In this document: piece by piece, positions 20,255 through 64,000 of the stretch | Numbering within the stretch: position 1 is the first letter of the stretch | Layout of the letters: each line of letters starts with the position of its first letter | Assembly (NCBI RefSeq): GCF_001522545.3 | Contig: NC_031781.1 | Coordinates: 9,801,487-9,865,486 of the forward strand | Source of the DNA: Parus major | Taxonomy: Eukaryota; Chordata; Aves; Passeriformes; Paridae | Direction of reading: 5' to 3' | DNA length: 64,000 bases | Notes under the pieces: generated by a model | Databases searched by the model: none | Seen by the model: only the letters and a program-made list of their open reading frames with translations | Told to the model about the DNA's origin: nothing | Position numbers and translations under genes: made by a program

Positions 20255-20601
20255 TAAGGATCTACAACTTCCTGAAAGGTGGTTGTAGGCAGGTGGGGGT
20301 CGGGCTCTTTCTCCAGGCAGCAGCTGACAGAACAAGAGGACACAGCCTCAAGCTGGGTCAAGGGAAATATAGGCTGGATATTAAGAAAAAGTTTTTCATG
20401 GAAAGAGTGATAAAACACTGGAATTATTTGCCTGGAGAGGTGGTGGAGTCACCATCCCTGGATGTGTTTAAAGAAAGACTGGATGTGGCACTCGGTGACA
20501 TGGTCTAGTTGAGGTGTTAGGGCATGGCTTGGACTCAGTGACCTTGAAGGTCTCCTCCAACCCAGCAATTCTGTGATTCTGTGTATTCTGTGAATTCTGT
20601 G
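20255..20601 (+). mobile_element. CR1 LINE, 3' end
   Basis: This is the 3' end of a chicken-repeat-1 (CR1) non-LTR retrotransposon, the dominant LINE of bird genomes. I recognise the ordered hallmarks: a TACAACTTCCTGAAAGG-like start, GGTGGGGGTCGG, GGCTGGATATTAAGAAAAA, GTGGTGGAGTCACCATCCCT, then GACCTTGAAGGTCTCCTCCA. The terminal tail has four copies of ATTCTGTG (20568, 20576, 20585, 20594) instead of poly-A. Only about 350 bases of the 4-5 kb element remain, a typical 5' truncation. The ATTCTGTG version of the tail suggests a passerine-type subfamily. Confidence 0.93.
20260..20508 (+). pseudogene. CR1 ORF2 C-terminal remnant
   Basis: About 82 codons of the end of the CR1 ORF2 polyprotein (endonuclease/reverse transcriptase) are readable without a frameshift, ending at the TAG at 20506-20508. 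Recognisable pieces are YNFLKGGC, a DIKKKFFMERV-type segment, HWNYLPGEVVESPSL and VALGDMV just before the stop. The endonuclease and polymerase domains are missing through 5' truncation, so it is not functional. The intact frame suggests a moderately recent insertion. Confidence 0.88.
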
Positions 20602-38990: not shown

Positions 38991-41900
38991 CAGGGGAAAA
39001 GCCAATTGCAGAGATGCTTTGCTGAGTATGAAACTGCTCAAGTTCTAGTTTGTGTGTATTTCACCTTTAATGAACCTGACATTTTATGAGTCAGCACTGA
39101 TGGGAAATATGAAGGTTGTCTTTCAGGAACACCTTACTCCTTGTCTCTGCCTGCCAAGATGTCACCTTCTTGCTCTTTGCTCTCTTCGGCTGCCATGCTT
39201 TTCTCCAGCCCTTTTAACTTTCCCTACTCAAAAGATTAACCCTACAGTCTCACACTGGAGAACTTACTTCAGCTGCACAGAAACAGCAGTACAAGACAGA
39301 TAAGAAAGCAATTGTACCCTGAGGAAGCACGAGGAGTGTCTGCATCGTATACACTTGCTTTACAAAACAGCAGCTACTTATGCAAAGCAAGTGGCCTTTT
39401 AAAACCAAGACAGGGTACATGGAAAAGCTGTCATGGCAGATGCCTCATTAGACCTCTATCATGGCTACTTGGAGCAGTTTCTGTCCTATCCTTATTTTAG
39501 TTTTCCACTATGGGAGGTGGTGTGTCTCACTGCTTGCCTGCACCGTGTTGTGGCCATAATCCTGGGGCAGGGCAGACAGATTGTGAAAATCCAGTTTGAG
39601 AATCCTGAGGGGAAGGGAAGGGGAAAGAGAGCTGGAGTGAAGTGTCTTCATGTGAGGAATTGGTGTCAGATCCAAAGTGGGATTTAGACCTGATCTATGC
39701 TTTTTTCCCCCCAAGACATCTCCCAGCACTGCCCAGAAGAATCACATGCTTTGCTTCTGTTTCCAAGGGTCTTAATACGGAAAGCTTCAAACTAAATATT
39801 ACAAAAAGTGGCTTTGTAGGCACTCCTAGAGATCAGAAGCTTGTGTTGGTCCTTCAGCCTTGCTCTGGAAGGGCTGTGATGGTGCAGAGAAAGATTGTGG
39901 ATATGCAGAAAAAAAAAAGATCAGATGATGCCATGGAAGAAAATCCATCAAAGTTTATTAACTGTAGAGAGCCATTATTTCAGGTGGGCAATGCCTGACC
40001 TGAGGTTGGGGGGAGCAGGTAGTGTACCCAGAAAAGCAGACTCAATATCCTCATCCTTTCTGTGCCCTTTCCTTGCTGCCTTCAGCAGCAGGGCAGCAGG
40101 CTGGATGGATGCTTGGCTTTGTTCACTGCAAAGCTCTCGTCTTTGAACCTCAAAGGTAAAAATAGCCAGAGATCTCTGACTCGGTTCACACAAGTGTCTT
40201 TGAGATGGGAAAAGCTTTCAATTGCTTCCAGCCTGGGGCCAGAGCAGTACCAGTGACCATGAAGTAGAAGGCTCCACATCCCATATTAACCAGTCACTGC
40301 AGTCCTGTTCTCTCTTCTTTTCCTTGCCTTGACTTTGGTTTTTTTTAGCCTCTAATGAAGCACAAGTATCCGGAAGGAAGGCATGCCAGGGGTGACAGGG
40401 AAATGTCCTTCTGATCTCTCCTCTTGAAGGAAGATTTGGAACATTTTAATAAAGTGAATTAAGAACTTGGACACAAAAAGTAACCTGTTTCTCGGTGACT
40501 GGTGCTTTAATCTTCTCCCTGAGCATCTGATAAAGGCTTTCCTTAAAGAAACCTCCGGAACACAAAAGGGAAAATAAAAGAATGGGAGAATAGACTGAGA
40601 AGTGCAAGATGTTTAAAGGCACCCCAAAAAATGAAGCTGCTTGGGTGTTAATTGTGTTCTCTTTTCCCAGAGCCTATTTCTCTCTTTCGTTTCTGATTTT
40701 GGATCAATGCTAGAGGCTGCAAAGCTAAACCAAGGAAGGAAAAAGCCTTTGATTAGACAATCTGAGTGGTAAAAAAGGTATTGAACAGAAAGTGCAGTCA
40801 ATGAGCTACTCAATACAACAATTAGAAGGTGAAACTTTTTCTTTCCCTTTCGTAGCAAGAAACACCTCTGCTCTGCTGGAAGGAGGTGGGAGGGAGGAAT
40901 TCTCCCCATTCTGGTTCCCAATTGTCTTCTGGACCTATTCCATTTCAAAGAAATATATGACCTATAAAACTGGCCCATTTTCATATCACCCAATACAATC
41001 TGTAACACTACCTGGCATTTAAAGGGACTCTTACCGTATTTACAGTGACAAGATTACTGTTACAAAAAATTAATAAAAGTATGAAGAAAAAATGTTGCCT
41101 CTACAAGCATTCCAGGAATTTTTCTAATTATAGAATCTTTCCAACACTGCTGGCTACATAAATGGTTACACAGCTGAATCTTTGTCCAGCCAGGGAACTG
41201 CCCTGCTCTTTGGAAATTACATGTGAAAAAAATCCGAGAAAGTTGAGTGGACTGGTCTGAAAAAGTAATACAGTAACTCATGGATTTTTTTTTCTAGTCC
41301 TAATGATTGGAATTACTGCTATCAAACTGGGTATCTTAAAGGATGGTGTCCTTCCCCTAAGCATTTTGAAGCAGGGGAGGATCTCAGGGTGCTGCAATTA
41401 GCTCAACATGTGTTATCCTGAATTCCTTCAAGCAGGTCCCTGGGAGCCAGTGGAACTTGGAAGAAGGTCCAGTTAAGCACCGTGTGGGTCTTTGCAGAAT
41501 CACTGCTTTCACCAGGGCCTGCAGCATTCAGAGCACTGCCAGCCTCTTGGGCTACATTTTGAGCTGAATTTGGTTCAAGAATATGGTGTCTCCTTCAGCC
41601 TGGATGGCACCTACCCCAACACAAGGCAGGCCCTGAGCTGCCTTTGCTGTGGTTGTGCCAGCAACAAAGGGTGGCATCAGAGGCTCTCTCAGAACATGTG
41701 CAAGCAGAGGGAATCTGTGACCCAACTCTTCCACCCATCAGGCAGCTTCAGATATCAAAGCCACACGAGTCCCAGGGGAGCCTTATTTATTCCTGATGCT
41801 TCAATTTAAGCTTGTCTTTGAAGCCTAGATCTCACAGCAGAAGAGGAATTGAAAAGCTTCTGCCTCTCTCTCCCTCACAGTTTCAGACACATCTACAGCC

Positions 41901-42984
41901 ATTTTTAGCCACAGACCATACCAGCAAAATAAAAGTTGGGTTCATATTGCAGCAGCATCCAGTGCTGTAAGATCGAATCTCTCATTTTTGCCCCCTCACC
42001 TCTGAGAGGCTGCAGACATTCCCTCCAGTCCCTGAGACAGTTTTGCTATCTGGTTTTCCCTTCAAGCATCGACTGCCCACAAACAGCTGGGGCAGGAAGG
42101 GTTAACCTCCAATTCCCTCACTCCTGACCACACAAAAAGTTACAAATCCTCCTCTATGCTGCTGCTGCCCTTGATCTGCAGTGTAAAGGGAGAAAAAAAA
42201 CAACCCAAACAAACCAGAGATTAAAAACCAGGTAGGTTTTATAGATCAGCTGCAAAAGGAAAAGCAGAAAGATAGAGCAGAGGGGCTGGGAGGGAGCAGC
42301 CCTCAGCTGGCACTACATAGGCTTTGCTGTTCACCTCTTTTACTACATCCTTTACTGTCCTATAAACATGGCTAAGCCCTAGCAGCATCCTTACATCTCA
42401 CAGAGCCCTGTGCCTCCTTCCTGGGAAGTGCCAGATCTTCATCTACCAGCCATGTACTACCTCTTGTCCCACTGGGAGCTTTACAGGGCAACTACCATCC
42501 CCACTGCCAAATAGCACCTTCCTCACACTGCTCCTTTTGTGCTCTTTTTACCACAGATTCACAAAATACTCATTTTTCTTATGCTTTTCCTCCTTTCTAC
42601 TGACCCTGTCCCTCCCCATCTGCTAATATTCTGTCTCTCCCCATCTTGCTTCCTATGCACTGTTGCTCTCCAAATTGTTTTTTCTTTGGGTCCTATTTTT
42701 TCTGATTAACAAAAAAATAGAATGAGTCCAGGAGCTTTGTGATTTTTGTTTTCAAGCACACATTTTGTTTTGATAAACTGCATTGTTTTGTCTATAGAAA
42801 AGTATTAACTGCTTACATCTATTTTCTCAAAGACCGCACATGAATATTAAAAGGGATTTATTCCTACAATGGCTTCGGGCAGTTGAGTAATCCATTATAG
42901 GCTGTCATATCACACTGTGGTAATGTGAAAAGCTGGGAGTCCCTCCAATAATATTTATTAGCAATACAGGCACATTTTCACTTT
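38991..42984. other. Unique non-coding DNA up to the T/G block
   Basis: No gene recognised. An A/C-only run lies at 42193-42216. Composition becomes more pyrimidine- and T-rich after about 42540, before the abrupt change at about 42985. Confidence 0.5.
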
Positions 42985-43087
42985 ATATTTTTTTCCCCGT
43001 TCTTGTGATCCGTTCGCTTTTTGGTGTGTTTTTTGTTTTCTTTCCGTTTTTTTTTTCTTTTTCTTCTGCTTTTTATTTTTTTGTTTT

Positions 43088-43088
<1 letters not shown>

Positions 43089-43139
<51 letters not shown>
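43089..43139 (+). repeat. Poly-T run (51 T) near left edge of block
   Basis: An unbroken run of 51 T about 100 bases inside the left edge of the T/G block. It has the same polarity as the run at the right edge. Confidence 0.9.
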
Positions 43140-46100
43140 CTTTTGGTATGTACTTGCTTGTTTATTTTAGGTTCTATAGTCTTCTTTTTTTGTGTTTGTT
43201 CCTTTTTTCTTTTCCTGTTCAGGGTCTTCTGTGGCCTTGTGTTGGGGTGGCCGGGCGTAGTGTTCTGTAGTTGTGTCGTTTGTACATCTGCTTTTGGCCT
43301 TGGTGTGCGGGTTGTGGTGGGGTTGTGCCTTGTTTTTTTTGTTTGGCCCTTCACAGCTGCGCTGTTTGCCGCTGTTGGGTGGTTTTTTTGTCCTGCTTGT
43401 CGGTTTTTGCTTTTTGTTTTGCTTCTTTTCCTCGGGTGTGGTTTGGTTTTTCGTCATTTTTTTTGCGTTTTTCTTTTTTTTTTGTTCTTTTTATTTTTTT
43501 CTTTGTCTTGGTTGCCCCTTCTTGGTTTGAGGTTTTGCGTTCTGGATTTCTTTGGTGTGTGCCCCTGGTGTTGGGTTTTTCCCGAGTTTTGGTGGTCATC
43601 GGATGTGTGTTCTCCCTGTGAGTTTGTGAGATCGTGGTAATTGCTTTGTGTTGTTCGTGTTTGGTTCGTCTTGTTTGTTTTTCTGGTCCCTGCGGGTGGT
43701 TTCCGTTCCCTTTTTTGTTTTTTTGTGTGTTTCTTTGTTGTTGCCCATCGCGCGGGGGTTTTTTGGTGGCCTTTTTTTTTTTTGGATTGGGGGGTTGGCT
43801 TCTGCTGGTTCTTTATTTCTGTGTTGTTGAGTTGTTGCTATAGGTTCTTGATTTTTGTTTATCATTTCTGTTTGTTTCTTTTTTTTTTATTTTTGGGAGG
43901 TTGCTGTCTTTTTTTTTGCTGTCGTGCTTACTTCCTGTCATGTTTTCTCTATTCTCCTTCAGTTGGATCTTGGTAGGTGGTGTATTGGTGTGTTGTTTTG
44001 GTGCTCTTGGGTGGTTTTTTCTCATGTATGACACTTTTGCTTCCATTTTTTGGTGGTTTTGATTTTGGCTGTTTTCCATTCTTTGCCTGCCCTGTTGGTT
44101 TTCGTATTTTTTTGTTTGTTAGTATGTTTTGGACATTGTTTTCTGTTGCATTGTGCTTTTTGGTTTGTCTTGTTGTGGTGCCGTTGGTGGGCGCCTTTGT
44201 TGTGATGCGTTTTTTTCCATTCAGTTTTTTCTTTGTTTAACTTTTGTTTGAGTTTGAGTTTGTTTGGTGTTCGGTTATTTTTTTTTTTATTGCTGATGAG
44301 TCATGGGGTTTTTTTTTTTTTTTTTAGTTTCCCTGTTTTACGTATTGCTTTGTGTTTAGTGTGTTTTTTTCTGGTCCTTTTTGTGGTGAGTTGCTCTCGA
44401 GTGGGTGGTGTGGAGTAGGTTTTGTAGCGTCATTGTTTGCCTTTTACTCCGGCCTTGTCTTACAGTTTTGCATTTTGTTTCTTGTCTCCTCGGGTGTCAC
44501 TGCCGTGTGGTTGTGTATTGCTTTGAGATTTTATTTGTGTTAGTTCGTTCGTGTTTGTACTTTTTCTCGTGTTGGTTTTTCATTTTCGCGTGGTGTTGGT
44601 TTTTTTTGTTGATGTTGTTGGTGCTTGTTTTGAGCTTGCCGATTGTAGTGTTCTGTTTGGCCTTTGGGCTGTCCTGCAGTGCCTTTTTTGACTTCTTTCT
44701 GGTTGCCGATGTCTTGGGCCTCCGTTTTTGCCGTATTTATTGTCTTGAGGGTTTTCCTTTATTGTGATTTAATTCCTTTTTCTATGATCTTTTTGCAGTG
44801 CCTCTTGGTTTGTTGTCTAGTTTTGGGTATCTGTTTGGTTCTGTGGTTAAGGTGTAGTTGTGTAGATAGTTTTTGATATCTTTTGTTGGTTTTTGATTTG
44901 TTTGTTTCGTTAGATTGTCTGGAACCTGGTTGTTTTTTCGATGTTCTTGTTTGTTGCTGTCAACTTTTGTTATGCGGTTCTTTTTTGTTTCGAGTTTGTT
45001 GTCCTGCTTTATCACTTTTTGTCCCCTGTATTGGTGTTTATGCTTGTCCATCAGACGTAGGGTTCTGTTTTTTTTTTTGTTTCTTGGCTACATGTGGCTG
45101 GGGCTTGTGTACATGCTGTCTTTTGTTTTGTGTTTTTTGTGTGTTTATTTTTATGAGTGTTTTGTCTTTGGGTGATTTTCTTTGGCTCTGTGTTGCAGTG
45201 TGGTTAGTTTGTTCTTGCTGAGTATCTTGGAACGGAGTTTTGTTTGTTTCTCGGTTTCTCTTTGGGCGTTTGTTTGTTTCTCTTTGGTTGTTTGTGCTGT
45301 TGCCATGTGGCGTTTTTGTGTGCTTTTTGAGTTGATTGTATTGGGTGTTTTTTTGGTTTTTTTTTTCTGTTTGTGTTTGGTGTGTTTGCTTGGGTTGTGC
45401 TTTTTCTCTGTGCAGTGATGTTTTCATGCCCATTTTTGTTGATTTTTGTGTGTTTGTTTTTGTCTTTGTTTACCTTGTTTGTTTTGTTCTGCAGCCTGGT
45501 GTAGCTTGTTCACCTTGGTTTGCTTGTGGTGGCTGGCAACCTGTCTGTTTTTGTGTTCCTTCCTGTTTTTGCGTGGCTTCTTGTGTCTCACTGTCATTTT
45601 TCTTTTCCTTCTTATCTCTTTTTTTTTTTTTTTTTTATTTTTTTTTAGTGTTTTTCGCTATGTGTATATTCTGGCGTTTCTTTTTTTTTGTTCTCATCCT
45701 TTTCCTCGTGTGTTGCTTGGTTTTTTTTGGCTTCTTCCCTGTGTGTTGTTTTGGTTGTGTTTTTTCTTCTTTTGTTTATTTTGTGCTTTGTTCCTGCTTT
45801 GGCTGCTGCAGTTTAGCTGTTTTCTCAGCTTTCTTTTTCTTGTTGTGAACATTGTGGTTTTTTTTTGCCGTGTGCTGTATCAGTCTTTTTTTGGTGGGGT
45901 TGGTTCCCTTTGCAGTGGTGTTGGTGCTATCTTTGTCTTTTTGTATATGGCGCGGGTAGTCTCCTGGTGGGAGCTCTGTTCCCGCAGTCGTTTTTTAGGG
46001 GTTCATTTGCGGGCATCTTTTTTGGCTGTTGCATTTCTTTCACTTTGAGTCTGGAAGGTCTGATTTGTTTTGGTTGCTTCTTCGCACTGTGCCTTGAGTT

Positions 46101-49100
46101 TTCTGGAGTCTCTTTCTTGTTTGTTTTCTTGATTCTTCTCCTCCTTTTTGGTTATCTTTTTCCTTTTTCAGTTGCTTTCTTTTATTTTGGGTTATAGCTA
46201 TGGGGGATGTTTTAAGTGGGGCTGGTGTGCTCAGTTTGGAGTTAGCCGTGCTTTTTGTGAAGTTTGAGGTCTTGGTGGTGGGTCTTTGAGTGTCCTGTGG
46301 AGTGGTTGTGTTCATTAGAGCTTTTTGTTCTTGGCGTTTTTATGAGTTAGATACCGCATGGCTCTTTGTGTTGGTGGGGTTGCTCCTGTGGTTTAATGGG
46401 GGGCGGGTGATTACATTTTTGGCAGGGACTTGTTATCTGGTTGTTTTTCTCTTTCTTGTGCAGCCTTTGGCTGGGTGGTTTTTTCGTTTATTTTGTTTTT
46501 TTTGCTGGTTAGAGTGGGGGTACTATTTTTGCACTGAGTGTGACGGGTCTTTATGGTTTCTTGTTTCTTCTGTCTGTTTCCTGTTCCCTTCCGTTCTGTC
46601 CTCTGTTGTTCTTTTGTTTTTTGCTATGCTTTTGGCTTTTCCAGTCTGTTAGTCATGTCCGTTTTTTGGTGTGAGTTTTCTTGTGTTGGGAGTGTTGCTT
46701 CTGTATTTCTGTGTGTGTTTTCGTGCTGCTTGTTCTTGTTGTGTTGTACAAACTGTTATTGTTTGATGGTCTTTCTTTATGGTGGTTCGCTCTTGGTTTT
46801 TGTCGGCCATTGTGTTTGATCCTTTATTTTGTCTTCTGAATGTTGGTTTTTGTCCCTTGTGATTGTGTCTCTTTGTTTCTTGTTGACAAGTTCAATTTTC
46901 TTTGCGGCTGTTTAGTTGTGTTTGATTGTGTTTGCAGTGTGCCTGAGACTTGTTTAATTTTGTTGTTTTTCTTTCTTTTTTGTTTTGTTCTTTCTTGCTA
47001 GGGCGTTGGTTTGGTTTTTTGTTTTTGGGTGCTTTGTTTTGTGTTTTTGCATGTAGCTCCCTGACATGGTGGTGGGTTGGGTTTATCGTTTGTGGGTGTT
47101 GCTTTATGTTTTTTGTTTCTTGTTTTGTGTTGGCTGTTGGTGTGATTGTGGTGTCTTGCCAGTGTTCTTTGGTTTTGTTTTTCTTGTGTTTTGTAGTTGG
47201 GCTGCGAGGTGTGTTTAGGGATTCCTTGGGCCAGTTGTTTGTGTTTTTTGTGCTATGTTTGAGGCTTTTAGGTTGTGTTCTTGGAGAGTGGGGTGGGTCG
47301 TTCTTTATGAGTCTAGTAGCTTGTTCATATTTCTTTCTTCCTTGCTTCTTGTTTTTTTTTTTTGTTCTGTGGCTTTGTTTGCTGTCATTTTTTTCCTTGC
47401 TGCTTTTGTTTGTTTTTCTTCTGTGCTTTTGTTCAGGCTCTTTATTGTGTCAGGCGCTGTTTTTGCGGTGTTTTTTGTTTTCTTTTTTTGCTTTCAGCTT
47501 GTTTCATCTGTCTTGTCGTGTCTGTGCCTTTCCCTTTTTTTTGCTGTTGTGTGGGATGGGGCTGGTTCAGCCCTTGTGTTTTGCTTTGTTTGGTTTTTGT
47601 GTTAGGTGCACCGTCTTGGGGAACCCTGTTGGTCTTTTTTTATCAGTGTGTAGGCAGTTGTTCTTCTTTTTGATTTTGCTTGTGTTCTCTCATGGTATCT
47701 TTTAGTTTGTTGTTTTTGTTCGGTTGTTGGTTTTTCATTTGCTTTTTCCGCTGCTGGTTCAAAGTACCTTCTGGAGTCTGGTCAGTGGTTGCTTTGTTTA
47801 CTGGTGCTTTTTGGTCTTTATCCGTACAGGCGTTCCTTTTTGGTTTCTTTTGGCTGTCTCCTTTTTTTAGTGCCTTGCTTCCCGGTTTTTTCGGAGTTAG
47901 TTGGGCATGGACTTGTTCTTTTTTTGGCGTCTCATGTGGAGTTTTCATGGTTTCTGGTATTTTTGGTTGGGGCCAGTGGGTCTGTTTTTTTTGTGCCTCT
48001 TGTTGGATATTGGGAGCGGTGTGTTTTCCTTAGCTTTTGCTTGTTACTGTTTCAGTTTGCTGTGTTTTGTGTTCTTGGGTGCCGGATTGATTTTTTTTCC
48101 TTTGAATTTGTGTGTAGCCTTCGTGTTCTTCCTTTGTTTGTTTGTCTTCTGGGGTTGGGTTTTCTTTTCCGTTCTTCTAGGGGGTGGTGCCCTGGTGTTT
48201 TTTTGCGTATTGAAATGATGATTTTTATTTTTTGGTTGTTTTTCTTTTTTTTTTTTTTTTCCCTCTGCAGTTGTTGTGGTTTTCGATTTCTTTCTGTCCT
48301 ATTTCTTGTTTTTACTCTAGTTTTCTGGGAAAGGTCTGTCTTTTTCTTTATTTTGTGTTGTTATACGTGAGTTCTTTTTTCTTCCATATTTTGTGTTCGC
48401 TGTAGTTTTGTCCCTCCTTTTATTTTTTACTGTATGAGCTCTTTTCCTTCGTGTTTTTGTCCTGCGCTTTTTTTTTTTTCTCTTTTTTTTTTGGGTCTTC
48501 TGGATAACCATTGTGGGTTTTTTCTTTCTTTTGGGTCCATTAGGTTTCTTCTGTATTGTCTTTTGGCAGGGGTGTTGGGTGTCAATCGTGGTTGCTCGTG
48601 GTGTTTTTCTTGCTGCTAGTTCTTGGTCTGATCGCCCACTTTTTTAGTGATGGAGTTTGCTTGCATATGTGTAGCCAGTTTTTTGTTTCTATTGGTTTTC
48701 AGCTTGTCTTTCTGTTTTGGTTTTTTTCGGTTCTGGTGTGTGTCTTGTCGTGTAAGCTTGGTGGTTGTTTTTGGGTTTATAAGGTTGCCTTTGTTTCAGT
48801 TGTTTTTGTGAGTTCATTGAGTTATTTTTGCTGGGTCTTTGATGCTTTTTGTTTTGTGCTGGGTAGGGGTTTTGTTTGGTGAGTTCGGGCTTTTTTTAGT
48901 TCGCTTGGCTAGGCTTACTGGTTTTGGATCCTTTGACTTTTAGTGACATTTTTTGCTTGTCTTGGTGCTTATTTTGTTATTCGGACTGTGTGCTGGGGGT
49001 TGAACAGTGTTTTTTTTTTTTACTTTTTGAGATTTCTCATGTTAGTTTCCTTGCTGTTTCTTGTTTGTTTTTATGTTTCGTTTTCTGTTACTTTGGTGAG

Positions 49101-52100
49101 TCCCTGTGGATGGTTTTTCCCGTTTTGTTTTGCTTGGGTTTTTGTGTTGTGTGTGCTTCTGCTTTCGCGTGAGTCTTGGTATTTTGGTGTTGTTTCGGTG
49201 TTTGTCTTTGAAGGTTGGAGGTTTTTGTGTGTGCTGGCGGGAGTTTGGTCGTGTCTGTTTTTATTTTGCTTTTGTTCACTTGGGTTTGTTTTTGTTTTTT
49301 GTTTTTTTTTTTTTTTCTTTTTTGTTCTTCTGTGGTTTTTGCCTTCCCTTTGGTGTTGCCTTTTTGTTTGTTTGGGTTCTGCTGTGAGGCCTCTGCACTT
49401 TTTGTTCGTACTTCCTGGTCTCCTTGGCTGTCTCGGGCTGTGCTTTGTGGTTGCCCGTGAGCTGCTCTTGATGGCTACTTTTGCTGGGCTTTTGTTCAGG
49501 CCTGTGTTTAGCTGATGGCTCCTTTGGAGGTGTTCCTCATTACACCATCTTTTTCTGGGTTTTTTACATTGTTCTTGGTGCTTGTTTCACGTATTTGTCT
49601 TGATACTCAGTTCCTTTCTGCTCTTTTTTTCTTTTTGTTGTGGTCGTGTTTTGTTGGGCTTTCTTTTTTTAAGGTGAATTTTTAGTTGTGTGTTTTTTTT
49701 TCGTTTTTTTTCTTGGTAATGGTTTCTTTCCTGGTTTTTGTTTTCCTTTCCGCCTGTTTGTTCTTTGCCGTTCACAGTTCTTGGTTGTTCTTTGATTTTG
49801 CCTTTGTTTTCTTGTTTTGTTGTTTGTTTGTTTCTTTGTGCCAGCTTTTTGTTTTTCGTTGGTTGTTTTCGTTTTTCTGATTCTGTTCGTGGTTTGTTGG
49901 TCTGCTACTCTTTATTGTTTTCTGGTTTCTTTTTTGTTTGAAACTGGGGTTTCCTGTTGTGTTTTGTGCCATTGTGCGTTGTTCTCATTTGTGCGGTCAA
50001 AGTTATCGGTTTTCCTTTGCTTGTGTGTTTTTCGTAGGGCTGTGTTTTTGTTGGTTTTTTCCTTGCATTTTTTCTGGTGTTTTTTTTTTGTGGGTGTTTT
50101 CGAGTCGTATGATTTGTCTCAGCTGGTATTGCATTGTGTCCAAGAGTTTTGGTTTGGCCTTTCTTGGTTTCTGTTTCTTTTTTCCTTTTGTGCTTTGTTG
50201 GTTTTTGGATTAGCGCTGTGCATCGGTGGTTTGACTTTCTGCTGTTGCATAATTGTTTCTATGTGGGGCATGTTCATTGAACCTGCTTGTTTGCTATTCG
50301 TCCTTCTGCCTGTTGTGCTGGTTGGTGCTCTTTTTGCCTGTTTATTTGGTTTGTGTTTTGGTGTTTTCTGGTTTTTTTTTTATTTAGCTGGTTAATTTTT
50401 TTTTTTTTGCTGTGTCTTTTTATTATAGTTTGACTGGTTTCTGTTTTCTGTGATTGTGTGTTTGGCTTTTGATCTGTTTTGTGGGATCTTATGTTTCTTT
50501 CTTTGCTTGCCTTTCTTTCCTTGTGGGCTGAGTTTCCTTTTGGTGACAGTGGTGTCGATCCGTGTGTTTTTTGATTTTCCTTGGGCTGTTTTGTTTTTTT
50601 TTTGGCAAGTTGCTGGTTTGGTTTTTTGTTTTATGTTCTGGAGATGTTTTTAGTGTGTATTTTTAGTGTGTGTTCGACTGGAATCCTGTTTTAGCCTCCT
50701 GTTTGCTGGGTTTTTCGTTTTTGTGTCCCTTTTTTGTCTTCTCCTTTGGTGTTTGTTTTGCTTGGTTTTCGCTTCGTCGGTGCTTTTTTGGGTTGGTTTC
50801 CTTGAGGGTGGTTTTCGGTTGTTGTATTTGTTGGTTACCCTTTTTTGTTTTTATGAGTCTTTTTTTGTGTGTGTGCTGGCTTTATTTTTCTCGGATCTGC
50901 AGACACCTGTCTTCTTTGTCTGGATTTGGATTCTGCCTGTGTAGGGCTCTTGGTAATTTCCCGGTGATTTTTGTTTTTTTTCTTGCCGGTTGCTTTCTGT
51001 TCTTTTGGTTTCCATCAGCTTGACTTTGTTGTCTTCATCCTGTTTGTTATTTTTTTGGTGAATGTCACATGGTGTTGCTTAGGCATGGTCTTCTGTCCCT
51101 GGTCCCTGTGTTTCGTTTTTTGCTTGGCAGGAGGCAATGTGTCCGTCAGGTTGGTGTTTGGTGTTGGTGAGTTTGCTTTTGCGTCCTCCTTTGGTTGTGG
51201 GCTGTTTTTGTGTATTTGTGGGCATTGTGGTTTTTTTTTGTTTCTTTCTTGTCGTTTCCTTTTTTTCGTCCCTTTTTGTGTGTTTTCCCTTTTGATTGGT
51301 CCTGCTGTCTGAGTTTTTTCGGTTTGGGCTTGTGGGGTGATGTTTGCCCTTTTAGTGATATGTTTTTCTCTTTTCCTTGAGTTGTTTTTTGCTGTGTTTG
51401 ATTTGTGCCTTGTGTTTTCTTTCCTCAGTTTTCTTTTTGTCGTGCTGTTGACGGCTTTTTCTTTTTTTGTTGGGTGGGTTGTGCTCCTAGGTCGTTTTCT
51501 CTGTTTTTTTTTGTGCTTTTGTTTGGGGAGATTGTGAACTTGTAATTTTCTTTGAAATCTGGTTTTTCTTCTCGTCCTCTTTTGGTTCAGTTTCTTCTGA
51601 GCTGCTTCTGTGTGCCGTTTCCTTGCCTTCTTATCCTGCACTGCCTCTGTGTGTTCGTTATTGCCTCGGAGGCGGGTAGTTATTTTCCTTTGGTATTTCT
51701 TTTTTTTGTCGGTCTGGTGTGACTCCCTTCCTTTTGTTTGTTTGGGTGTTCTGCTGATTCCGGTGGGCATTGGTGTTTTGGCTAGTTTTCAGTTAGTTCC
51801 TGTTTCTTCCTGGGTTTTCTAGTCTGCGGGTTGGCTTTGTTTGTATGTTTTTTTTGTTTTTTGTCAGGGTTGTTTTTGATTTGTCTTGTCGTTATGCCAG
51901 GCTGGGTTCCTCCATTTGGCATTGGATTATTTTGTTTGTTTTTTGCGTTTGTCTTTTGGTGCTTTCTTTTTTCTTCCATGCTTATTTCCTTTACTGTTGT
52001 GTGGATACTTCTTGTTTTGTCACTGCTGATGTTGAATTTTTTTCTTGTGTTTTCCTTTATTTATTTTTCTGTATTTGTTGATTTATTCAATGTTCTATGT

Positions 52101-55100
52101 CTGTTGTTATCAATCTCATGTTTTGTCTTTCATCGTGTTTGTTTTCGTAGTCCTTTTTGCCCTTGTCTTGTGGTGTTTCGATGATCTTTTTCCCCAGTCT
52201 ATATTGGTTCATGCTTGTTCAGAGGTTCGTACTTCTGTGTACTCAAGGGGTGTTGTGGGTGGTTGTTATGGGACGTTTAATGCTTTGGGTTTTTTTCGTT
52301 TTTTCTTTCTCTTTTGTTTTGTTTTTATAGTAGTCCTTGTTTTTGTTTTGTCCATTGCCGCAGTCAGGTCTGGTATTGTTTCGGTGAGTGGCGTTTGCCG
52401 TGTCTAGGTACAACTTTTTTTTTGCATGGGAGATCTTTCCTGTTTTTTTGTTGTTGTTGTGTGCTGGGCTTTATTGGTTTTTCTTGTTTTGCTGTTTTGG
52501 GGGCTGGCCTGTTTAGCGGGGTTCCGCGAGTTTTTTGGACTTGTTACTGCGTTTTGTGTGGTCAGGTTTGTTTTTGTGTGTATGTTTTTGTTTGATTTCT
52601 TTTTGTTTTGTTCTGTTTTCTTTGGCTTGGTGACTTTGAACGCCTTTCTTTTTGGGGGTGCTTTTAAATCTTTGCTTTGCTTGGTTTTCCTTCCACTGTT
52701 ACTCTTCTGACATGTTTTGAGTGTGTTCTTGTTTCTCTTCCTTGTGTTTGGTGCTTTATTTTGTCTTCTTTTTTTATGGGAGGGCTGAGATTTTTGTTCA
52801 GCTACATTGTGGCCGTTTTTTTGCTCTGCTGCTCTTTTTTTGCTGTGGATGATTTATGGTTTGGTGACTGCTTCTAGATCGAGTGCGTGCCTTTTGGTTT
52901 TTGTGAGTAGGTTTTTTTGTCTTTTTTTGGTAGCCTTTATGGCTTGTGGTTCTGCTTTGCTTTTTGTTTCGTTGGATTGTGGTCTTGGGTGTGTTCTGGT
53001 CTTGTTTCGCTTTATTTACTTTATGGTTTTCTTGATGTGGTTTTTTTTTGTTTTTTTTTGGTTTTTTTTGATTTGGTCCATTGTTTGGTCTTGTTGTCAA
53101 GGTTTCGATGTGTTGACTGTTTGTACTTATGGATGTGCTTGTCTATTTGGATTTTTTTTGTTGGTAGTTGTGTTTCCTGGTTCGTTTGTTTTTCCCCGGA
53201 GTTCCTTTTTGTGGTATGAACTTTTTTTTTTTCCTTTCCTGTTTTTGTTTGTCCTGCCTTGTTTATTCTGATCTGTTTGTTTTATTTGTTTGGTTGTGTT
53301 TGCTGCTGTGGGATGTGTGATTCTTTTCTCTTGCTTCTTTTTGTTTTCATTTGCTTTGTTGTGTGGTGTTCTGCTCTTGTTTTCCCCTCTTTTCTGCTTT
53401 TGCTGATGGTGTCAGTGGTTTGATGTGGCGGTTGGGATTTTGTATATTTGGCCTGGTTACGTGTGGGTCATTGTGTTTTTCTGGGTTTTTGCTTGCTTGG
53501 GTTCTTCCTTTCCTGAGTGTTTGTTGTTTTTTGTGCTTGTAATGTGTTTTGTTTGTTTTTTCTTTGTTTTTTTCCTTTTGTTTTTTTATTCTTTGTGTAT
53601 TGCTTGTGACATCAGTTCTTTTTGAAGCTGTTTTGAGTTGGTTTGGTTTAGTAATGTGTTCGTATGGTCTATTCGCCTCTCTTTGTGTTTTCCTTGGGGC
53701 TTGTGGGCGTTTTTCGGTCTTTCCCATCATGGTTGGCTGTGTTTCGGATCCTGGTGGATCAGCACCTTTCCCGTTTTCGTTTCTCATCACTGAGCGCTTG
53801 GTTTTTGTTTTCACTGCATGGTTTCAAGCAGCTGGCTGGCAGCTTTTCTTTCGTGCTTTTGGTTTTGTTAATTTATATGGAGGGTTTGTTTTGCTGGCTC
53901 GCATTCTTTGCTTGGGGTTTGCTCAGGAAGTGGGTATGCAGGGTCATCTTTGACTCTTGCTTTTATCTTTCGCCTGATTGTTTCAGCTTTTGTTTAGTTT
54001 TTTTTATGGTCTTGTGTTGGAGCAGTTTGGGGGACTGGTGCTTGTTTTTCCTTTTTTTATTTGTCTGAGTAGTTGGCCTATGTTTGGATGATTTCTCCTA
54101 TTATTTTTTGTTTCTGGCTGTTTGTGTTGTAGTATTGAGGAGCTCGGTTTTTTGCGTTCTTTTTTTTTTGTGTTTGCTATGTCTGTCAGATATGTGTTTT
54201 AGGCTTTTTCCGCTGTTCGGGGTCTGGGGGTCATTGTTTCTTTTTCATCTTCTCTTTCTTGTTTTTGTTTGCTTTTTTGTGTGTTCGGTTTGGGTGGGAG
54301 GAGCTCCGCTGGGGTTGCTTGCCTGTTTCTGTTCCTATAGAGGGTTTTTGGCTTGGGCCTTTGATATTTGGTAGGCTGCCTTTTGTTTGTTTTTCCTTTG
54401 TTTGGTGTTGGTTGTTTTTTCTTTCCGCTTGTCTTCTTTGTCCTTTGTTTTGTGTTTGTTTGTGCCATTCTCGTGCTATTATTTTGTTGCTTTTTTGGTA
54501 GTTTTTTTTGGTTGATTGTGTTGTGCAGATTCTCCCTTACGGTTTGCTTTTTCTGTTTTTTGTCTTCTTGTGCTTGGTTTCTTAGGTTTTAAGGTCTGCT
54601 TGAAGGCACGTTTTCTTTTATGTTTTGAGAAACAGTGCCGTGCTCTGGTGGTGTGTTGTCGGGAGGTCTTTGGTCTGGTACGGGAGCCCGAAATCTTTTG
54701 TGTTCATGTGCTGACTCTCTTTGGCTTTTGTTCTCTTGGCGAAGTGAGTGTGCATTTAGCCTCGTTTGTTTTCTCCATTTTCCTTTTGATTTTTTTGCGA
54801 GGTGAACTTAGCATGTCTTTGCTGCTGCTTTTGACTCATGTCTTGTTTAAGTACGCTTTTTGAGGAGTTTTGATTCTTGTGATGACGTGTTGAGTTTTTC
54901 TTCTTTGCTGTCCTGTTTTTTGCTCTTCCTTTGCAGGATTGGTTTTGTGGTGTGTTGTGCTGTGGTTTTCACTGTGTGGTTTGAGGCTTTGAATGGTGAG
55001 TGTGTGGTGATGACCTCTTTGGATTCTTATAGTGGTTTCTTTGGGGTTGTTTTGTGTGTGCTTTCATTGTTTTTTGTTATCTTGCTATTTGGCTTTTTTT

Positions 55101-57929
55101 CTTCTTTTATGGACTGTTTTTTAGCTGTCTCTCTTTTCTTGCTGAATTATTTTTAGTGTTTGTGGCCATTTCTTTCGTGTTCGGTTTTTTCTTTTTTTTT
55201 GTATGGAGTGTGTTCACTTGCCTTTTCTTTTGCTTATGCTTCGATGATGCTGATCTTCCGTTTGTGTCTTGGATGTTGCAGTCTCGTTTTAATTTGCTGA
55301 TCTTGTTGTTTTGTTGGATTTTTCTTTGTCTGCGTCCTTTTTTATTTGATTACCCTTTTTCTTTCTTTTTGTTTTTCTTCCTGCGTGGTTTGTTTTGAAG
55401 TTGATGGAGGATTATTTCGTTAGTTTTGTGATTTCTTCTTTGTCTTTCTTCCTTTCGGGTTTTTTTGGGTTGGTTTTTCTTGCCTTGTCCAGATCCCTGG
55501 GATTTTGCGCTTTGTTGTCTTTTGTTTGTGTTGTTGTTTGGGTGGCTTTCTTTTTTTGTGGATGAGGGTATTTTTAGTGGTGTTGTGCATTTGTTGAGTC
55601 ATGTTGCAGGTGCTTTAGTTGCTTGTGAGTGTTCTGTGAAAGAAAACATGGAGGTTTTGGGTCTTTGGTTGGTTAGTGGTTTTTTTCTTTTTTTCCCTTT
55701 AGTAAGTTGCTTATTTATTTGTTTTTTCCTTTGTACCTTGGGGTACTGGTGACGTTGTGTTGTTGTTTGCTTAGCTTGGCTGTGTTTTTCTTCTTTTGTG
55801 TTGCTTTTTTTGCTGGTTGGGTCTTTGATCCTCCTGTTGTGGTGCACTATTTTCCTGGCTTTGGCTTGGATTCTAAAATTTTATGCTTAGGTTGCCTTCT
55901 TCTCTTCGTGGTTTGCTGGATTATTTCTTGTAAGCATTTGTTATTGCTTGGCTCTTGGGCTTATTTTTAGTTGTTGTGTTGGAAGGAATTCTGGCTTTGG
56001 TTTCCCCTGTTCATTGAGTTTCTTTTCTCCCTTTGTTATTTCCATGGCTTTAGTATTTTTTGTGGTAGGGTCCTTGCAGCAGGGTCTGTGATTGTGCTGT
56101 CTGGTGGTTGGCATTGTGGGGTATTTCTGGTGTTCGGATGTTTAATTCTTCATTTGTGCCTTGCTGGCGTTTTTTCCTCCTTCGTGTTTCGAGTTTGCTG
56201 GCTTTTTTTCCCTTTTTATTTTGTTTGGTTTTTTTCTTTGGCTTTTTATGATTTAGGATGGGCTGTTGCCTGTTTGTTTTTCATGATAAAGGTGTGTTGT
56301 GCTGGTTTTTGTTCTTTTTGGTTTGTGTTTATTTTTTTTATTACCTTTGTTTTGTTTCTTTTAGCGTTTGCATTTTGTTCTTGACTCAGCTATCCTTGTT
56401 CTTCTTGTCAGAGCTGCCACTACCTCATTCTTATCTCTTTGTTATTGTTTCGTCCATTTCTTTCGTTCCTTTGCTTCTTTTGTTTGGTCTTATGGCTGGT
56501 GATAATGTAGTTCGTGTTTTCTGTGCTAGCTTGCTGTATGCTGTGGTTTGATGGGACCCTGTCTTTTCTGGTCTTGTTTATGTGGCCCGGTTGTTTCAGC
56601 TTGTGCCTTTGTTTCGGGGGATTGTTCTGTGCTTTTGTTGCTTGTCTTGGTTTTTTTAATCCTGAGATTGTGTTTTGTTTTCTGTCTGTTGAATTCCTTT
56701 CTTTTTTCCACCTTGCTTCTTGGCGTGTTCCGTGTTTTTGTATCTTTTTATTTTTATCTTTCTTTTGTTTTGTTTCATTCTGGCATTTTGATTATTTTTG
56801 CTGTGGTGTTTGTGTATTTGTTTTCTGATTTTTTTGAGGTTTTTTCAAGTTTTTGCAGTGCTGGTTGCTTTGGTTTTGTTGGGATTTTCCGGCTGACCGG
56901 ATTTTTTGTGGAGTTTTTTTGTGTGGAGCTTCTGTGGTCTTTCCTCTGCTTTTACGTTTTTTCGTTGCTGTGGCATGCATGCGGTGTTTTTCCTTGTTTT
57001 CTTTGTGATGTCTTTGTTTTTCTCTCTTTCTCCTTACCTCTTCTGTGGTTTTGAAGAGTTGTTTTGTGATTTTTTGTCAAGTTGTGCTTTTCCAGTGTGT
57101 TTTTGTCTTTTTTTCTGTTTGAGTGTGACAGAATAGTTACGGTTTGTGCGGGAGTGAGTGAATAGTATGTTCTTGGGATTCTAGGTTTTTTTGTTGTGTT
57201 TCGGTTTTCCTTTTGCTTGCGGTTTTTGTATTTTTCACCCTTGGTTCTTATTCTTTTTTGGCGTCTCTTTTTTGTCATTGTTGTGTTTTGTGCCTTGACC
57301 ATTTGGCTGCATTTAAACCCGGGGCCCTGGTCCCTTTGTGGGTTTTTCGATTGTTTCGTTCGCTCTTTGTCGTCTGCGGATGGGGTAGTTTTTGCGATGC
57401 GTTATCTTTGAGGATTGTTGTTTTTTTGTTAGTTCTCGATGGCTTTGGTGCTCGTGATTTTTTCCTGCGCACTTTTGTCTCTCTCTGTTGTCTTTGGGTA
57501 GGGTAGTTGATTCATTTTGGGCTTACAGTTCTTGGGGTGCCTGCTTCGTCCATTTTTGTGTTTATCCTAAGGTTTGTTTTCTTTTTTTTTTATTATTTTG
57601 AGTTTTTCGAGGTTAATTTTGATTTGCAGATTGTTTTTCTTTTTGAGCTTTTTTTCTACTCTGTTTTACCTTTTTTTGGACTCCTTTTTTCCATTGGTTT
57701 TTTCCTGCTTGTTTTCTTTGGTTGTCAGTGTTTTCGCCTGATCTAATGTGGTGTGTTTTGTTTTTTGTCAGTGTTATGTTTTTGGTCTCTGTTTGGTTGT
57801 GCGTGGTTGTATGGGGGTCTTCTTTCTCCCCCTTTTTAGTTATTTCCTTGGATTGATGGGGTTATTTTACATTCTTTACCTGCTCTTTGCTGTGATCTTT
57901 GCTGATTTCGTTCCTTTGCTTTTTTTTCT

Positions 57930-57931
<2 letters not shown>

Positions 57932-58022
<91 letters not shown>
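57932..58022 (+). repeat. Poly-T run (91 T) at right edge of block
   Basis: An unbroken run of about 91 T that ends exactly where ordinary sequence resumes (AATGTCAAGCC). Homopolymers this long are rarely stable or sequenced accurately, so its true length is uncertain. Confidence 0.9.
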
Positions 58023-58025
<3 letters not shown>

Positions 58026-61000
58026 GTCAAGCCTGTCCCCATCTTCTTCTGTCTGCTTTGGTCTTTAAGATATATTGTACAATTTTAGTACTGTTTCTCT
58101 TTTGTTCTTTATCCCTATTAAAAAACCCCCAAAACCAACACTTTTTAAATTGCATCTAGAAGCCCATGGAATGAAATGCCCTAAAAAGTGCTAAGTGTGA
58201 AGCTGGATAACTTTTCTAGACTGAAAAGGAAATTTGAACGTCTTTAGATATTTGAAATACTGCTCTTTGTTCCTAGGAGATGTGGACATGGGGAGGATGT
58301 AATGAGCAAAGGTGATTGTTTGAACTTGATAGAGTGGCACTATTTGAAGGCTTCATAAAGACTAAGAAATTATGATTATGGGAGGAAAATCTAAATTTAC
58401 TTCACTGAGCTTGTTCATGTGCCTGTTCATTGTGCTCTGTCGACAGATCACTGAGCCCCACTGAGCCCAAGACCTTTGCAAGACTCATGACATTGCACAA
58501 AAAAATTTGTGACTTTTTTTTGTGGCTCCTTTTGCTTTTTGATCCAGTCACCTTCTTGGCTAAAGGAAAAGGGGAATGGTCCTTCCAACTGAAAAGAATT
58601 TATTAAAAACTACAAATGTAATCTCTTTCCTAATTCCATGGTGATTTTTCTGGGCTGAATGCAGGTGATACTTCAAGCATCTAAAACACTCACGTATTTC
58701 TTCTTGTTCAAGCTAATTTACAGAATCCTGTGCAATTGCTAGAGTATGCTGCTTTATGTCTTTTCCAGTCTAATTTCACATCTTCAGTGACACTTTAAAT
58801 ATTACAGCTTATTTATTTTCCAGTTTGTGAACCAGCTTGAGAATCATATTGGTTGCAGCTCCTATATTCCACATTTTTCTAGCTTGAAAAATTAGTAAAT
58901 ATTATCAGCAGCCTGTTTACTGGCATTCTTAATATTAGAGGAAGGCAGAATTAGAAGTAAGCCCGTAGGAAGATTTTTTTAATATTAAAAGCTTATACTG
59001 CCACATTGTGTTTTCAATTCCTGATTGGCATTGAAATTGTATTATGTTTCTGAGTTAGTAGAGTGTTCCCATTATGCTGAGTTCATCTGGGTCTTGCTGT
59101 TGACTGTGATGAAACTGAGTTGGGTTCGATTCTTTTGGCCATCAAAGTTGAGGTAATTGTTTTAAGGTGCAAATACAAGTAATAGGTACTTTACTGTGTG
59201 TGCATCTGTAGCTTTTTCTATATTATAAACATCTTAGCAGGATATCTGTATGTATATATTTCATATATAAATGGCTTAAGACTTCAAACTGGGAACTCTG
59301 CCACTGATGTGCTGTGCAACATCAAACACTGATCTTGCTTGTCCTCAGTTTTTCATTGGTAAGTGGAAATTATGGTTGATATCCATAGCATTAGGCAGAA
59401 GTTGATAATTCATGGCAGTCCCTTCATTGGCTGAGAGAACTTTCTTGGATAGGAATAAAAAGTATCTCCCATGTGAAAGAAAGTATTTTATGGCTGAAAG
59501 TCTATCTTACTTCAAAACTCATTGTTTCCTTGTTTGCACATGGAAACCAGACATTTTCCCACTCCTTCTTAAATAAGTTAAAGCCAGAAGAATTTATTCT
59601 TGTCACCATGAACTTAAAAATGTCTAAATGTTCTGAAGATATTGTCCCCTGAAGTATAGACTCATGTCAAAACCCATTTGCACCTTACTTTGTTGTCATG
59701 TCTGAACATATCCAAATATTCAGAAGAATCTCAGATTGTCTAAATTGTAAGTTATTTTAAATTTTTTCCTGTAAATCAGAAGGAACATTGCCTATCTAAT
59801 TTCACTCCAAGCAAAATGCAAGTTGCAATGATATAAAGAGGATAATAGACTTTAATGTTATGTTTGTGCCAATACCCCCCATCTTCAGTCTTCAATACAT
59901 TATCTTCATGTCAAACGTCTTTAACCAAGATGAAGATGAAAGTAAGCTTTAGTTCAGTTAAACTATTTCAGAGGTGGTTGGCAAATGAAAAACCCCAAGA
60001 AGTTTTCCTGTGCAATGAAAATCCTATTTTTGTCCAATGTTTTTGGAAAAAATGCTAAAAGGAATCCGCTATCCTCAGACAACTTTGTGAGACAAAACAA
60101 AGATGCATGTAAAAGTATAACTAGACATACAATTTGTATGATATGTAAACAAGAGTTCTACTAAATGCATTTTGACTGCAGTCTGATTAGCCTTGTTTAT
60201 ATCTCTAATGCTCTCATCCAGTCCTTTCCACAAAATATTATGAATTATAATAAATGGAAATAAATCTTAATTGTGGATATCCCTGAATCCAAGGGATTGA
60301 TGTTGATTTAACTTACTTGACATTTAGTTTAATTTAATTATGTGAAGTCTCTGTTGGTAACTAGCAGAGACTGTACATGGTTGCCTCATTATCTTGCTGT
60401 GATAGTGTGTGGCTGTTGTGTTTGCTCATTGTCATGATGCTTGTTTACTCAGGGCCCTCAGAGAAAACCATATTAAATAATTCTGCAATCATTTTTCCAG
60501 AAACAACAGCAAAAAAATCTTAGTGTTTTCATGTTTTCAAAACTGACAAAAGCCAGTGAAATCGAACTATCTTATAGCATGGCTTCAACACAAGTGGAAT
60601 ATATTGGTTTGGATTTGGAAACCCCAACATAAGTTCTTATGAAACAAGGATTTCTAGAAATAACATCCAGATATTCTCATATAATATCTAAACCAGCATT
60701 AGAACTTTTTTTGGCAGTCACTGAATCATGATGTTCTATGGGGAAGCTGCAGCAGTGTGCAGCAGCCACATGTGGGTGGCATGGTGTGGGAACAGAAAGC
60801 TGTATCTAATGAAAAAAGTTAATGCTGCATTAATTCCTGTATGAGAAATCTGTGCCAATGTACCTGGCTAAGTTAGCCCACTGTAACTGTTGTCAGTCTT
60901 GTAATTTTTGTTAGGTTGCAATACAAGACAGAAACTTTCAACAATTGCAGTGTGGTTACCTGTATTCCAAGGTGACTCACGAACTAATTAGAGATATGAG

Positions 61001-61245
61001 GAGGGCTGTTCTACTGATAAAAATACTTTGTGTTCCCAGTTATTGCAGTTAAAATCAGTCTGTCATGAAGTGAATGACATGAATTATTGAAGAATCTTCT
61101 GGTTTTCAAGTGAGTAGTATGACACGATTCTAGAATGCTTAGAGGTGCACAGATATCAGCATTTGCTACACACGCATCTATAACAAATGGAGTATGTTTA
61201 CTTAATAAGATGGATTTTTTTTAATTTCAAGAGCCATAAAGAGCC
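58023..61245. other. AT-rich unique non-coding DNA
   Basis: Typical AT-rich intronic or intergenic sequence (for example 18 of 60 G/C in 60121-60180). Open frames are at most 67 codons. A 22-base A/C-only run occurs at 58120-58141, close to the block edge. No gene or repeat family recognised. Confidence 0.55.

Positions 61246-61280
<35 letters not shown>
61246..61280. repeat. (TA)n microsatellite
   Basis: About 35 bases of alternating TA interrupted once by TACA, preceded by a duplicated AGAGCCATA. Confidence 0.9.
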
Positions 61281-64000
61281 GCAAAGCTCTATCTAACATA
61301 AGCTGAACAATAAGCATGTGTCTTGAACTTGGTTATGAAATGTAGAAAGCCAAGCATGTTTATCAATTTGCTTTTGAGGAACTAAAAGTTCTTACTGTTC
61401 TGACCAGAATGTCATCTTTGGCTCATTTGCTTTTAGCCTTTTCTTGAATGTATTCAAGTAATCTTGATCTACAGCAGGTATCTTATATTAGAATATGATT
61501 TAGAGGTAGACCAAGAAATTTCTATCAGCAACTGATTTTTCAGTTCTAAGATTTGTAACTGTAATTGCACTTGCTCACTAAAGGAGTGGAAGATAAAACA
61601 TACAAACGAAAAATGATAAACATTGCAAATTAGTGTAAGAGGTGAGACCAGCCTTTCAAGCAAATCTGGATGTGATTGTGGACTGCAGCACCAAATTAGT
61701 GTTGCTCCTAGAGACTTTTTCTGTGGTGTATGGGGGTTTGCTTGTTTTTGAGCTGTAGAAGTAAGTATGCATTTGTCCTGTTGTGGTTTACTGTGGTCTT
61801 TCTAAGGAAACAGAGTAGGTTTTACCTGTACATTCCCTGAGCATGAATTTGTATTTAGTATGGCACTGTTCTGCACAGCTCCCACCCCACCCACCCACCA
61901 CCCCACCCAAAATGCCCCAAACCCACACCTAAACTTCAAATCCAAGGAATTTCTCATTTTACACTAGTGTTGGGCATTAAAGTTTTAAATGAGAGGAAAT
62001 CCTAGGTCTTGCCTGGTTTCCTTCATGATGGTCTAAAATGAACACACAGACTCCATTCTAGATGAATACAGATGAGCATGATGGTCATAGGATGCAGCTT
62101 TGTGGCTTTTTGTGGTCATTTAAGGCAACATACCCTGTCTGTTTCTGACAGCTGTGAGGTCATAGAAAGAGTTTCATAGTTTTTTTGCTTTCAGCACCCT
62201 TGAATGATGTTTTCTCACACATCACTGTGCTATCATTTCCTATGGCAGGCTGCAAGAACGTTTTTTTGATAAGAGTTTTTCCTGACTTTTTTCAAATTAA
62301 GCTTTATCATTGGCATAAGGCATCATCCCAGTAAATGCTATTTATTCTTAGACTGAGAACTCATTGGACCCACCCTTGGCAACCCCTTAAACAACAATAA
62401 AATAAAGATCAGGGCAAGTAGTGCTCTGTTTCACTTGGGCATGGTTTTTGTTGACCTTTCTCCTCATTGTGTAACTTTTATCTTGATGTGCCCAAGACCA
62501 GAATAACAAGAGAGGGCCTCCAGCTGAAAGGGGTGTTTTGAAAGATGTCTTATCTAAAATGGTGTTTTTTAAAAATAATATTAGCTTTTCTATTAGTGTA
62601 AAATGTAGAAGAGGGAATTCATCCAGTATTGTTTCAATTATGACAACCTGACTAGATTTCATGAAGTATCTTTTTCAGTGACCATATCAAAAAAGAGACC
62701 TCACCAATTAAACTTTTAAAGCAACTGAAACCAGTACTTAACAATGTAAATGGCTCCTTTTGTAGTGCCTCATGTTTTTGTTGGTGAAAGATTAAGTCTG
62801 TGTAAAACCTGTTTAGAGTGAGGTAAAGCAGGAATAAAAGGGTATATGAAAGAAATCAGTGAAAAAACATAGACTAGGAGGACTAATCCAGATAACTTCT
62901 TGCCTAAAAACTATCTGAATAATAGGTATGATCATTTCTTACTGCTTTTTACAGGGGTGATTTTGTGATTAATGGGCAGCTGAAATTACTACTGAAAAAC
63001 AGGATCTCCAAGGATAGCAGGGTTTAAAGAGATCTTTTCATTTTCAAAACTAGTAGAAAACATTTTTTGGGAACTGGCCAACAGTGTTTCCATCTCTATA
63101 TTTTATCATGTTTTGTATTTTAAACCAGGAAGTGTTTTGCCCTAATAGTTGACAGTACCTAAATCCTAGGGCTCAATATTATGAATTTCTTGTTGGCAAC
63201 TGTGTTCCTAACAGCACAAAAGCCATTCTGTTCTCACTTTCAGATTGCCTACAAAAGAAACAAATCCCTATTTCTATGATTTCAGGATTTTGTTTGGCTT
63301 ATATAATGAAGGACTGTTGACTAGCAATTTGGTTTTATGATTTAAACCACTAGCTCTTTGCAGATCACCCAAATCAATTGCTTCTATATGATCTGGAAAC
63401 GTCCCTCATTACTTGTTCATGTGAGATTGTCTTTTAACATCATCCTACCAGAAGCATGTTAGAGATCCTATATTAGACACAGTATAATGTGCTAAATAGT
63501 GCATTAAAATGACAGCATAAATGTTAGTTGGAAGCAGTATTCACTATTTCAGAACAAATTCAGTTTGGTTATTGCTGTTTGTCATTGAGTGAGTGCCACA
63601 ATTTGATCCCTCAGTTATTTGTCGCCCATCATTGGCACTGCTGCCAGTGGTTTGGCACAAAGCAAAGAGGTTCATCAGAACATTAGAGCATGTGGAAGTT
63701 CAGGAAATAAAATTCTCTGAAGTGTACATGCAGTCTCTCTGAAAGTTAGATGGTTTCAGTATGTAACTGAATCTTTGTCTTCTTATTGTGATATTAAAAA
63801 GTAATTTTATTTAATCTAGCACTATGATTGTATTAGGTCTGAGGGAGGAGTGTTCAGCTCTTGACATGCTGGTATGTATGTGCAAATCATCAGACGTCAT
63901 TGTTAACTTGGTGAAGGTTTGGCAATGCTCATACTGGTGCTCTTTCTGAGGATCTCAGGCAGGGAATGAAAATTTTAACTGCTGAAAAGTCTTGTTAGGA
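61281..64000. other. AT-rich unique non-coding DNA
   Basis: No exon, RNA gene or repeat family recognised; the longest open frame is about 91 codons on the minus strand. Contains the C-rich tract at 61881-61908. Confidence 0.55.
61881..61908 (-). other. Potential G-quadruplex tract (minus strand)
   Basis: The plus strand reads CCC/CCCC runs separated by single A or ACCA; the minus strand therefore has six runs of three or more G with mostly one-base loops. This satisfies the usual G-quadruplex pattern and stands out in AT-rich surroundings. Confidence 0.75.

Follow-up and report, generated by a model that had tools for sequence, protein, structure and literature searches.

A strand-asymmetric block between strand-symmetric flanks

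We analyzed a stretch of 64,000 nucleotides from Parus major (hereafter the window; C14:9801487-9865486, where C14 is contig NC_031781.1 of assembly GCF_001522545.3) in which a block of 15,038 bases at positions 42985-58022, corresponding to C14:9844471-9859508, stands out by its base composition, and the origin of this block is the subject of the present study. The block contains 1158 A (7.7%), 2156 C (14.3%), 3668 G (24.4%) and 8056 T (53.6%), and the purine fraction measured over 43141-57930 is.325, versus.498 in the left flank and.492 in the right flank. An earlier note, made from the letters alone, had described 15 kb of T- and G-rich DNA that breaks strand symmetry, and the composition is confirmed here between strand-symmetric flanks. 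The same note called A nearly absent; A is indeed depleted, but its fraction of 7.7% is a definite value close to 0.28 squared. The left flank (1-42984) has a GC (guanine plus cytosine) content of 44-47% per 10 kb, and the right flank (58023-64000), at approximately 36% GC, makes up the first 6 kb of a longer AT-rich stretch that continues beyond the window.

Both edges of the block are abrupt. Across neighbouring 1-kb bins, the AT skew falls from -0.08 to -0.85 at the left edge and returns from -0.73 to -0.12 at the right edge. The maximum-likelihood start, computed like the source-compliance scan described below over 42985-58022, is 42975 (within 3 nats, 42972-42991), and the maximum-likelihood end is 58066 (within 3 nats, 58019-58110). 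The left edge (42985-43139) is composed of 104 T-rich bases (67% T) followed by a run of 51 T at 43089-43139, while the right edge is a run of 91 T at 57932-58022, after which normal DNA resumes. The texture of the block, along with the channel fits and the main k-mer test below, was examined over 43141-57930; the flank-length series, the mock blocks, the hidden Markov models, the self-shift and inverse tests and the pooled-composition comparison used 43140-57931.

Between the poly-T runs of its edges, the block is close to stationary and its memory spans only a few bases; A makes up 5.5% of the first kb and climbs slightly, to about 9% by the final one. The earlier note saw no visible tandem unit, and neither did we: a tandem-repeat finder returned just poly-T and short low-complexity arrays within the block, and lag correlation was at chance for lags of 10-4999 (mean G statistic 9.01 with 9 degrees of freedom, compared with 9.32 and 9.63 in two slices of the left flank). 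A satellite or other tandem array was thus rejected. The dinucleotides nevertheless resemble those of the surrounding genome, with observed-to-expected ratios of.51 for CpG,.68 for TpA and 1.56 for CpA, and with correlations of.86 to the left flank and.81 to the right. When 3 kb of the block were used as a query against the assembly (1.02 Gb in 1,669 contigs), with simple repeats and common words skipped, the search returned, besides the block itself, six matches of at most 51 bases in low-complexity DNA.

The block matches the alphabetical maximum of two sequences

We fitted a free four-by-four substitution channel from flank to block, using each flank on each strand as one of four sources. 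All four fits gave an upper triangular channel when the letters are arranged as A, C, G, T, with the entries leading to earlier letters being zero to two decimals. Specifically, A could become any letter, C became C, G or T, G became G or T, and T remained T. As a fit, the channel is no more than moderate (G 203-296). Its triangular shape, however, is the one that a position-wise alphabetical maximum of two sequences would give, and an A fraction close to 0.28 squared is a further clue to such a maximum.

This rule allows the block to be predicted from its flanks with nothing fitted. The maximum of left and right flank predicts frequencies of.080,.151,.247 and.522 for A, C, G and T, and those observed are.078,.145,.247 and.530. 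With the flanks available in the window, G for words of one to four letters was 6.8 (3 degrees of freedom), 20.8 (15), 89.9 (63) and 307 (255), with a p value of.14 for dinucleotides; with 40 kb per flank, G was 22.0, 82.7 and 288.1 for k = 2-4. The letter order proved to be specific, as A<C<G<T alone fits among the 24 orders tested and the runner-up has G 1,559 at k = 2. A bitwise OR of 2-bit letter codes was rejected (G 979 at k = 2), and independent bases drawn at the block's own frequencies gave G 412 at k = 2.

We also employed a pair hidden Markov model (pair-HMM), in which two hidden chains are trained on the flanks and nothing is fitted to the block. It scored 1.6536 bits per base at order 2 and 1.6533 at order 3, whereas Markov models trained on the block's own opposite half did worse, reaching 1.6572 at best. 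The order-2 advantage of.0036 is in line with the.0043 +/-.0011 in 12 mock blocks, and in an order-1 model the next-best letter order was approximately 743 bits worse.

For calibration, we drew random slices of real DNA, each 14.8 kb long, from 83 kb of left-hand and 42.7 kb of right-hand sequence, and combined them by their letterwise maximum into 400 mock blocks. The block was ordinary among them on 12 of 13 measures, the exception being the evenness of its T content. The fraction of mock blocks that equalled or exceeded the block itself was.49,.57,.42 and.40 for G at k = 1-4;.65,.92,.63 and.13 for the frequencies of A, C, G and T;.735 for the longest T run; and.43 for the 1-kb variance of A. 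The CpG ratio of.51 compares with.54 +/-.03 in the mock blocks.

A block of this kind might instead have come from one sequence compared with its own shifted or inverted copy. In 600-base windows the best G was 43 direct and 42 inverted (self-mirror pairs left out), and the comparison of the whole block with itself gave at best 34 direct and 37 inverted. These values are far under those of a shifted positive control, run in the direct sense only, whose top five 600-base windows gave G 192-214, and this candidate was rejected. In statistical terms, the block follows the maximum rule with A<C<G<T, two sequences suffice to account for it, and these two are not a single sequence set against a shifted or inverted copy of itself.

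Genomic context of the block

For 40 kb to the right of the block the GC content is about 35-36%, lower than the 44-47% per 10 kb of the left flank. The AT-rich stretch on that side measures 42.7 kb, running from 58023 of the window to C14 position ~9902232, where it ends at a gap of 100 N; beyond the gap the GC content is again 44-47%. This stretch may be a contig placed at the wrong spot. Within 264 kb around the window (C14:9701487-9965486) there are five N gaps of 545, 100, 170, 30 and 135 bases, all outside the window. All five adjoin, on one side or both, a homopolymer or simple repeat, and one of them reads poly-T, 545 N, poly-T. The block's edges, with their runs of 51 and 91 T, resemble these neighbouring contig ends. 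The five gap lengths are all multiples of 5.

Poly-T or poly-A runs of at least 53 bases occur at 1,390 overlapping start positions in the assembly (723 forward, 667 reverse). We inspected 400 bases on each side of 15 such sites, sampled on contigs C1 and C2 among the matches listed. None of the 15 had a similar block; the surroundings were ordinary, GC-rich or, in one case, a short CTTTT repeat by a gap. N lay nearby at 5 of the 15 sites. Three gaps at these sites measured 30, 25 and 140 bases, and at two of the 15 a single N stood in or beside the T-rich tract. The idea that the block's poly-T runs are empty (N) columns turned into T was rejected, since N gaps persist elsewhere and long poly-T occurs without such a block. 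Because poly-T is natural elsewhere in the absence of a block, the edges are more simply read as natural contig ends of low complexity: poly-T is a natural feature, plausibly forms a contig end here, and is not an artefact in itself.

ARAGORN reports a tRNA-Leu gene with anticodon TAA at 17459-17541 on the plus strand. The open reading frame at 20182-20508, which has no Pfam match, presumably recalls the 3' end of the reverse-transcriptase frame of a CR1 retrotransposon. Pfam gave no match for any of the 10 flank open reading frames tested (174 are listed in all, many of them inside the block).

Probable identity of the two sequences

Among the possible pairs of sources, the left flank combined with the right flank, both in plus orientation, was the best with the window flanks, in the hidden Markov model, and when 15 or 40 kb of flank were used. 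This pairing, together with the context described above, suggests that the overlaid sequences are the two contig ends that meet at the block. Such an identity rests mainly on the context. Since the best pair varies with flank length and pooled composition fits nearly as well, composition alone is no proof of the contig ends.

Several results weigh against the two-contig maximum and must be set beside its successes. With 6 kb of flank, the complement of the left flank combined with the right fits better (G 35 vs 57 at k = 2), and the right flank combined with itself fits better at 100 kb (63 vs 215) and at 140 kb (78 vs 315), lengths at which the right side takes in DNA of 44-47% GC. The pooled composition of left and right is only.0005 bits per base, or about 7 bits, behind left with right; in that analysis the set of intermediate GC had one GC-rich locus left out and A/T runs of at least 30 removed. 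Neither source turned up in a source-compliance scan of the window and approximately 100 kb past each end, where the fewest violations per 300 bases were 18-25 on the four strands scanned, compared with 25 for the control and 0 for the positive control. Searched against the assembly, the segments 40500-42984 and 58023-60500 each returned a single match, to themselves, and thus gave no sign of an empty or alternate copy of the locus. No second such block was seen either, although the genome was not screened for one. The plain chi-square test is marginal at k = 3 and k = 4 (both p ~.015), yet both values are ordinary against the mock blocks. Finally, T is spread too evenly from one kb to the next (variance ratio.64, with 97.8% of mock blocks higher), and a few other values lie on the low side, with higher values in 93% of mock blocks for T runs of at least 8, in 92% for C and in 87.5% for CpG.

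Discussion

We conclude, with a probability of roughly 95%, that the block is an assembly artefact in which two unrelated genomic sequences were merged into their alphabetical maximum, and that it does not represent real DNA sequence. Our confidence in the maximum rule is slightly reduced because the best-fitting pair depends on flank length. A plausible course of events can be outlined. A scaffolding or merging step would have put approximately 15 kb from the end of the left contig and approximately 15 kb from the start of the right contig on the same coordinates, in a false overlap of about 15 kb placed without a valid alignment. Two unrelated bases would then have voted in each column, and of the two the consensus would have kept whichever comes later in the alphabet (A<C<G<T). 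A two-vote tie resolved with '>=' might have had this outcome, as might the replacement of an ambiguity code by the last of its letters. If the later letter is kept, A remains only where both sequences have A (approximately.28 x.28) and T wins more than half of the columns. The poly-T runs at the edges would be the low-complexity ends at which the two contigs stopped, the tract at 42985-43139 probably marking the start of the right contig and the run at 57932-58022 the poly-T end of the left contig. We infer both the contig ends as sources and the tie rule as cause.

The nearest competitor keeps the maximum rule and changes only what was overlaid, for example two unrelated gap-filling reads or contigs. 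It overlaps with the explanation given above and draws on the same two facts, namely that pooled composition is only some 7 bits worse and that the best pair shifts with flank length. We regard it as unlikely, considering that left with right in plus orientation is the best pair in the window-flank k-mer test, in the pair-HMM and in the pooled-composition comparison, that the edges coincide with low-complexity tracts resembling neighbouring contig ends, and that the GC content differs between the two sides of the block. The explanation favoured by the earlier note, a low-quality, channel-biased nanopore or PacBio read segment bridging a gap, agrees with ours in invoking an artefact that bridges two contigs, and that part is probably right. 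Errors that cluster into 'junk' segments and cause misassemblies are known from long reads (PMC6833143), and the stationarity of the block, with its memory of just a few bases, also speaks for this reading. The kind of artefact does not agree, however. Real sequence to which independent noise is added gives a trinucleotide G of 583-746, as against 90 for the unfitted maximum, and predicts a CpG ratio of.87-.95 where.51 is observed; nor does noise predict the unfitted two-sequence k-mer match up to k = 4 or the exact alphabetical order. Junk reads are therefore rejected on statistical grounds, and only as far as independent noise is concerned, and we consider them very improbable.

A real locus of extreme strand asymmetry has the smallest probability of all, and we regard it as negligible. 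Its genome-like dinucleotides (CpG, TpA and the flank correlations given above) speak for it. However, the block has no repeat structure, the 3-kb query from it returned, besides itself, just the six short low-complexity matches, and the fit to a two-sequence maximum would have to be a coincidence. The earlier note had offered two forms of such a locus. An expanded poly-T that gained G and C explains neither the genome-like dinucleotides nor a fit obtained with nothing adjusted. One-strand hypermutation from C to T together with A to G consists of transitions, which keep purines near 50%, and a purine content of 32.5% excludes pure transitions; the loss of A and C would have to be mostly transversion to T.

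Comparison with known systems leads to the same distinctions. One-strand hypermutation of the repeat-induced point mutation (RIP) kind or like that by APOBEC or ADAR yields strand-asymmetric composition through transitions and preserves the purine fraction; the block shares the asymmetry and differs in its purines, which are down to 32.5%. False overlaps, or forced merges of contig ends at a low-complexity gap, resemble the block in that base composition differs across the join. The usual traces of a false contig join are Ns, a duplication or a deletion, whereas here the two sequences seem to have been fused letter by letter into a text found in neither. The 'junk' segments of long reads (PMC6833143) are similar in being long wrong sequence inside otherwise good data; unlike them, the block follows a rule on two genomic sequences. 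Among the matches listed in the open-access literature, we found no description of an alphabetical-maximum overlay.

It is possible, at somewhat less than even odds, that the block is one case of a systematic class of database error, in which one program writes the alphabetical maximum of contig ends that cannot be aligned. If so, public genomes would contain kilobase blocks with 7-8% A and more than 50% T or, where a contig is reversed, of complementary composition. Each would hide two real sequences and would be recognizable by composition, without reads. The signature is an A frequency near the product of two ordinary A fractions, the alphabetical order and a diluted CpG depletion, which together offer a simple screen for assemblies. 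Such blocks would distort statistics of skew, motifs, poly-T and repeats, and the present one would conceal approximately 2 x 15 kb of real DNA. The result removes a tempting 'new kind of locus', with the sequence by itself being enough to show a probable origin. The biological interest of the block is accordingly low; it represents a recognizable error class for which public assemblies are worth screening.
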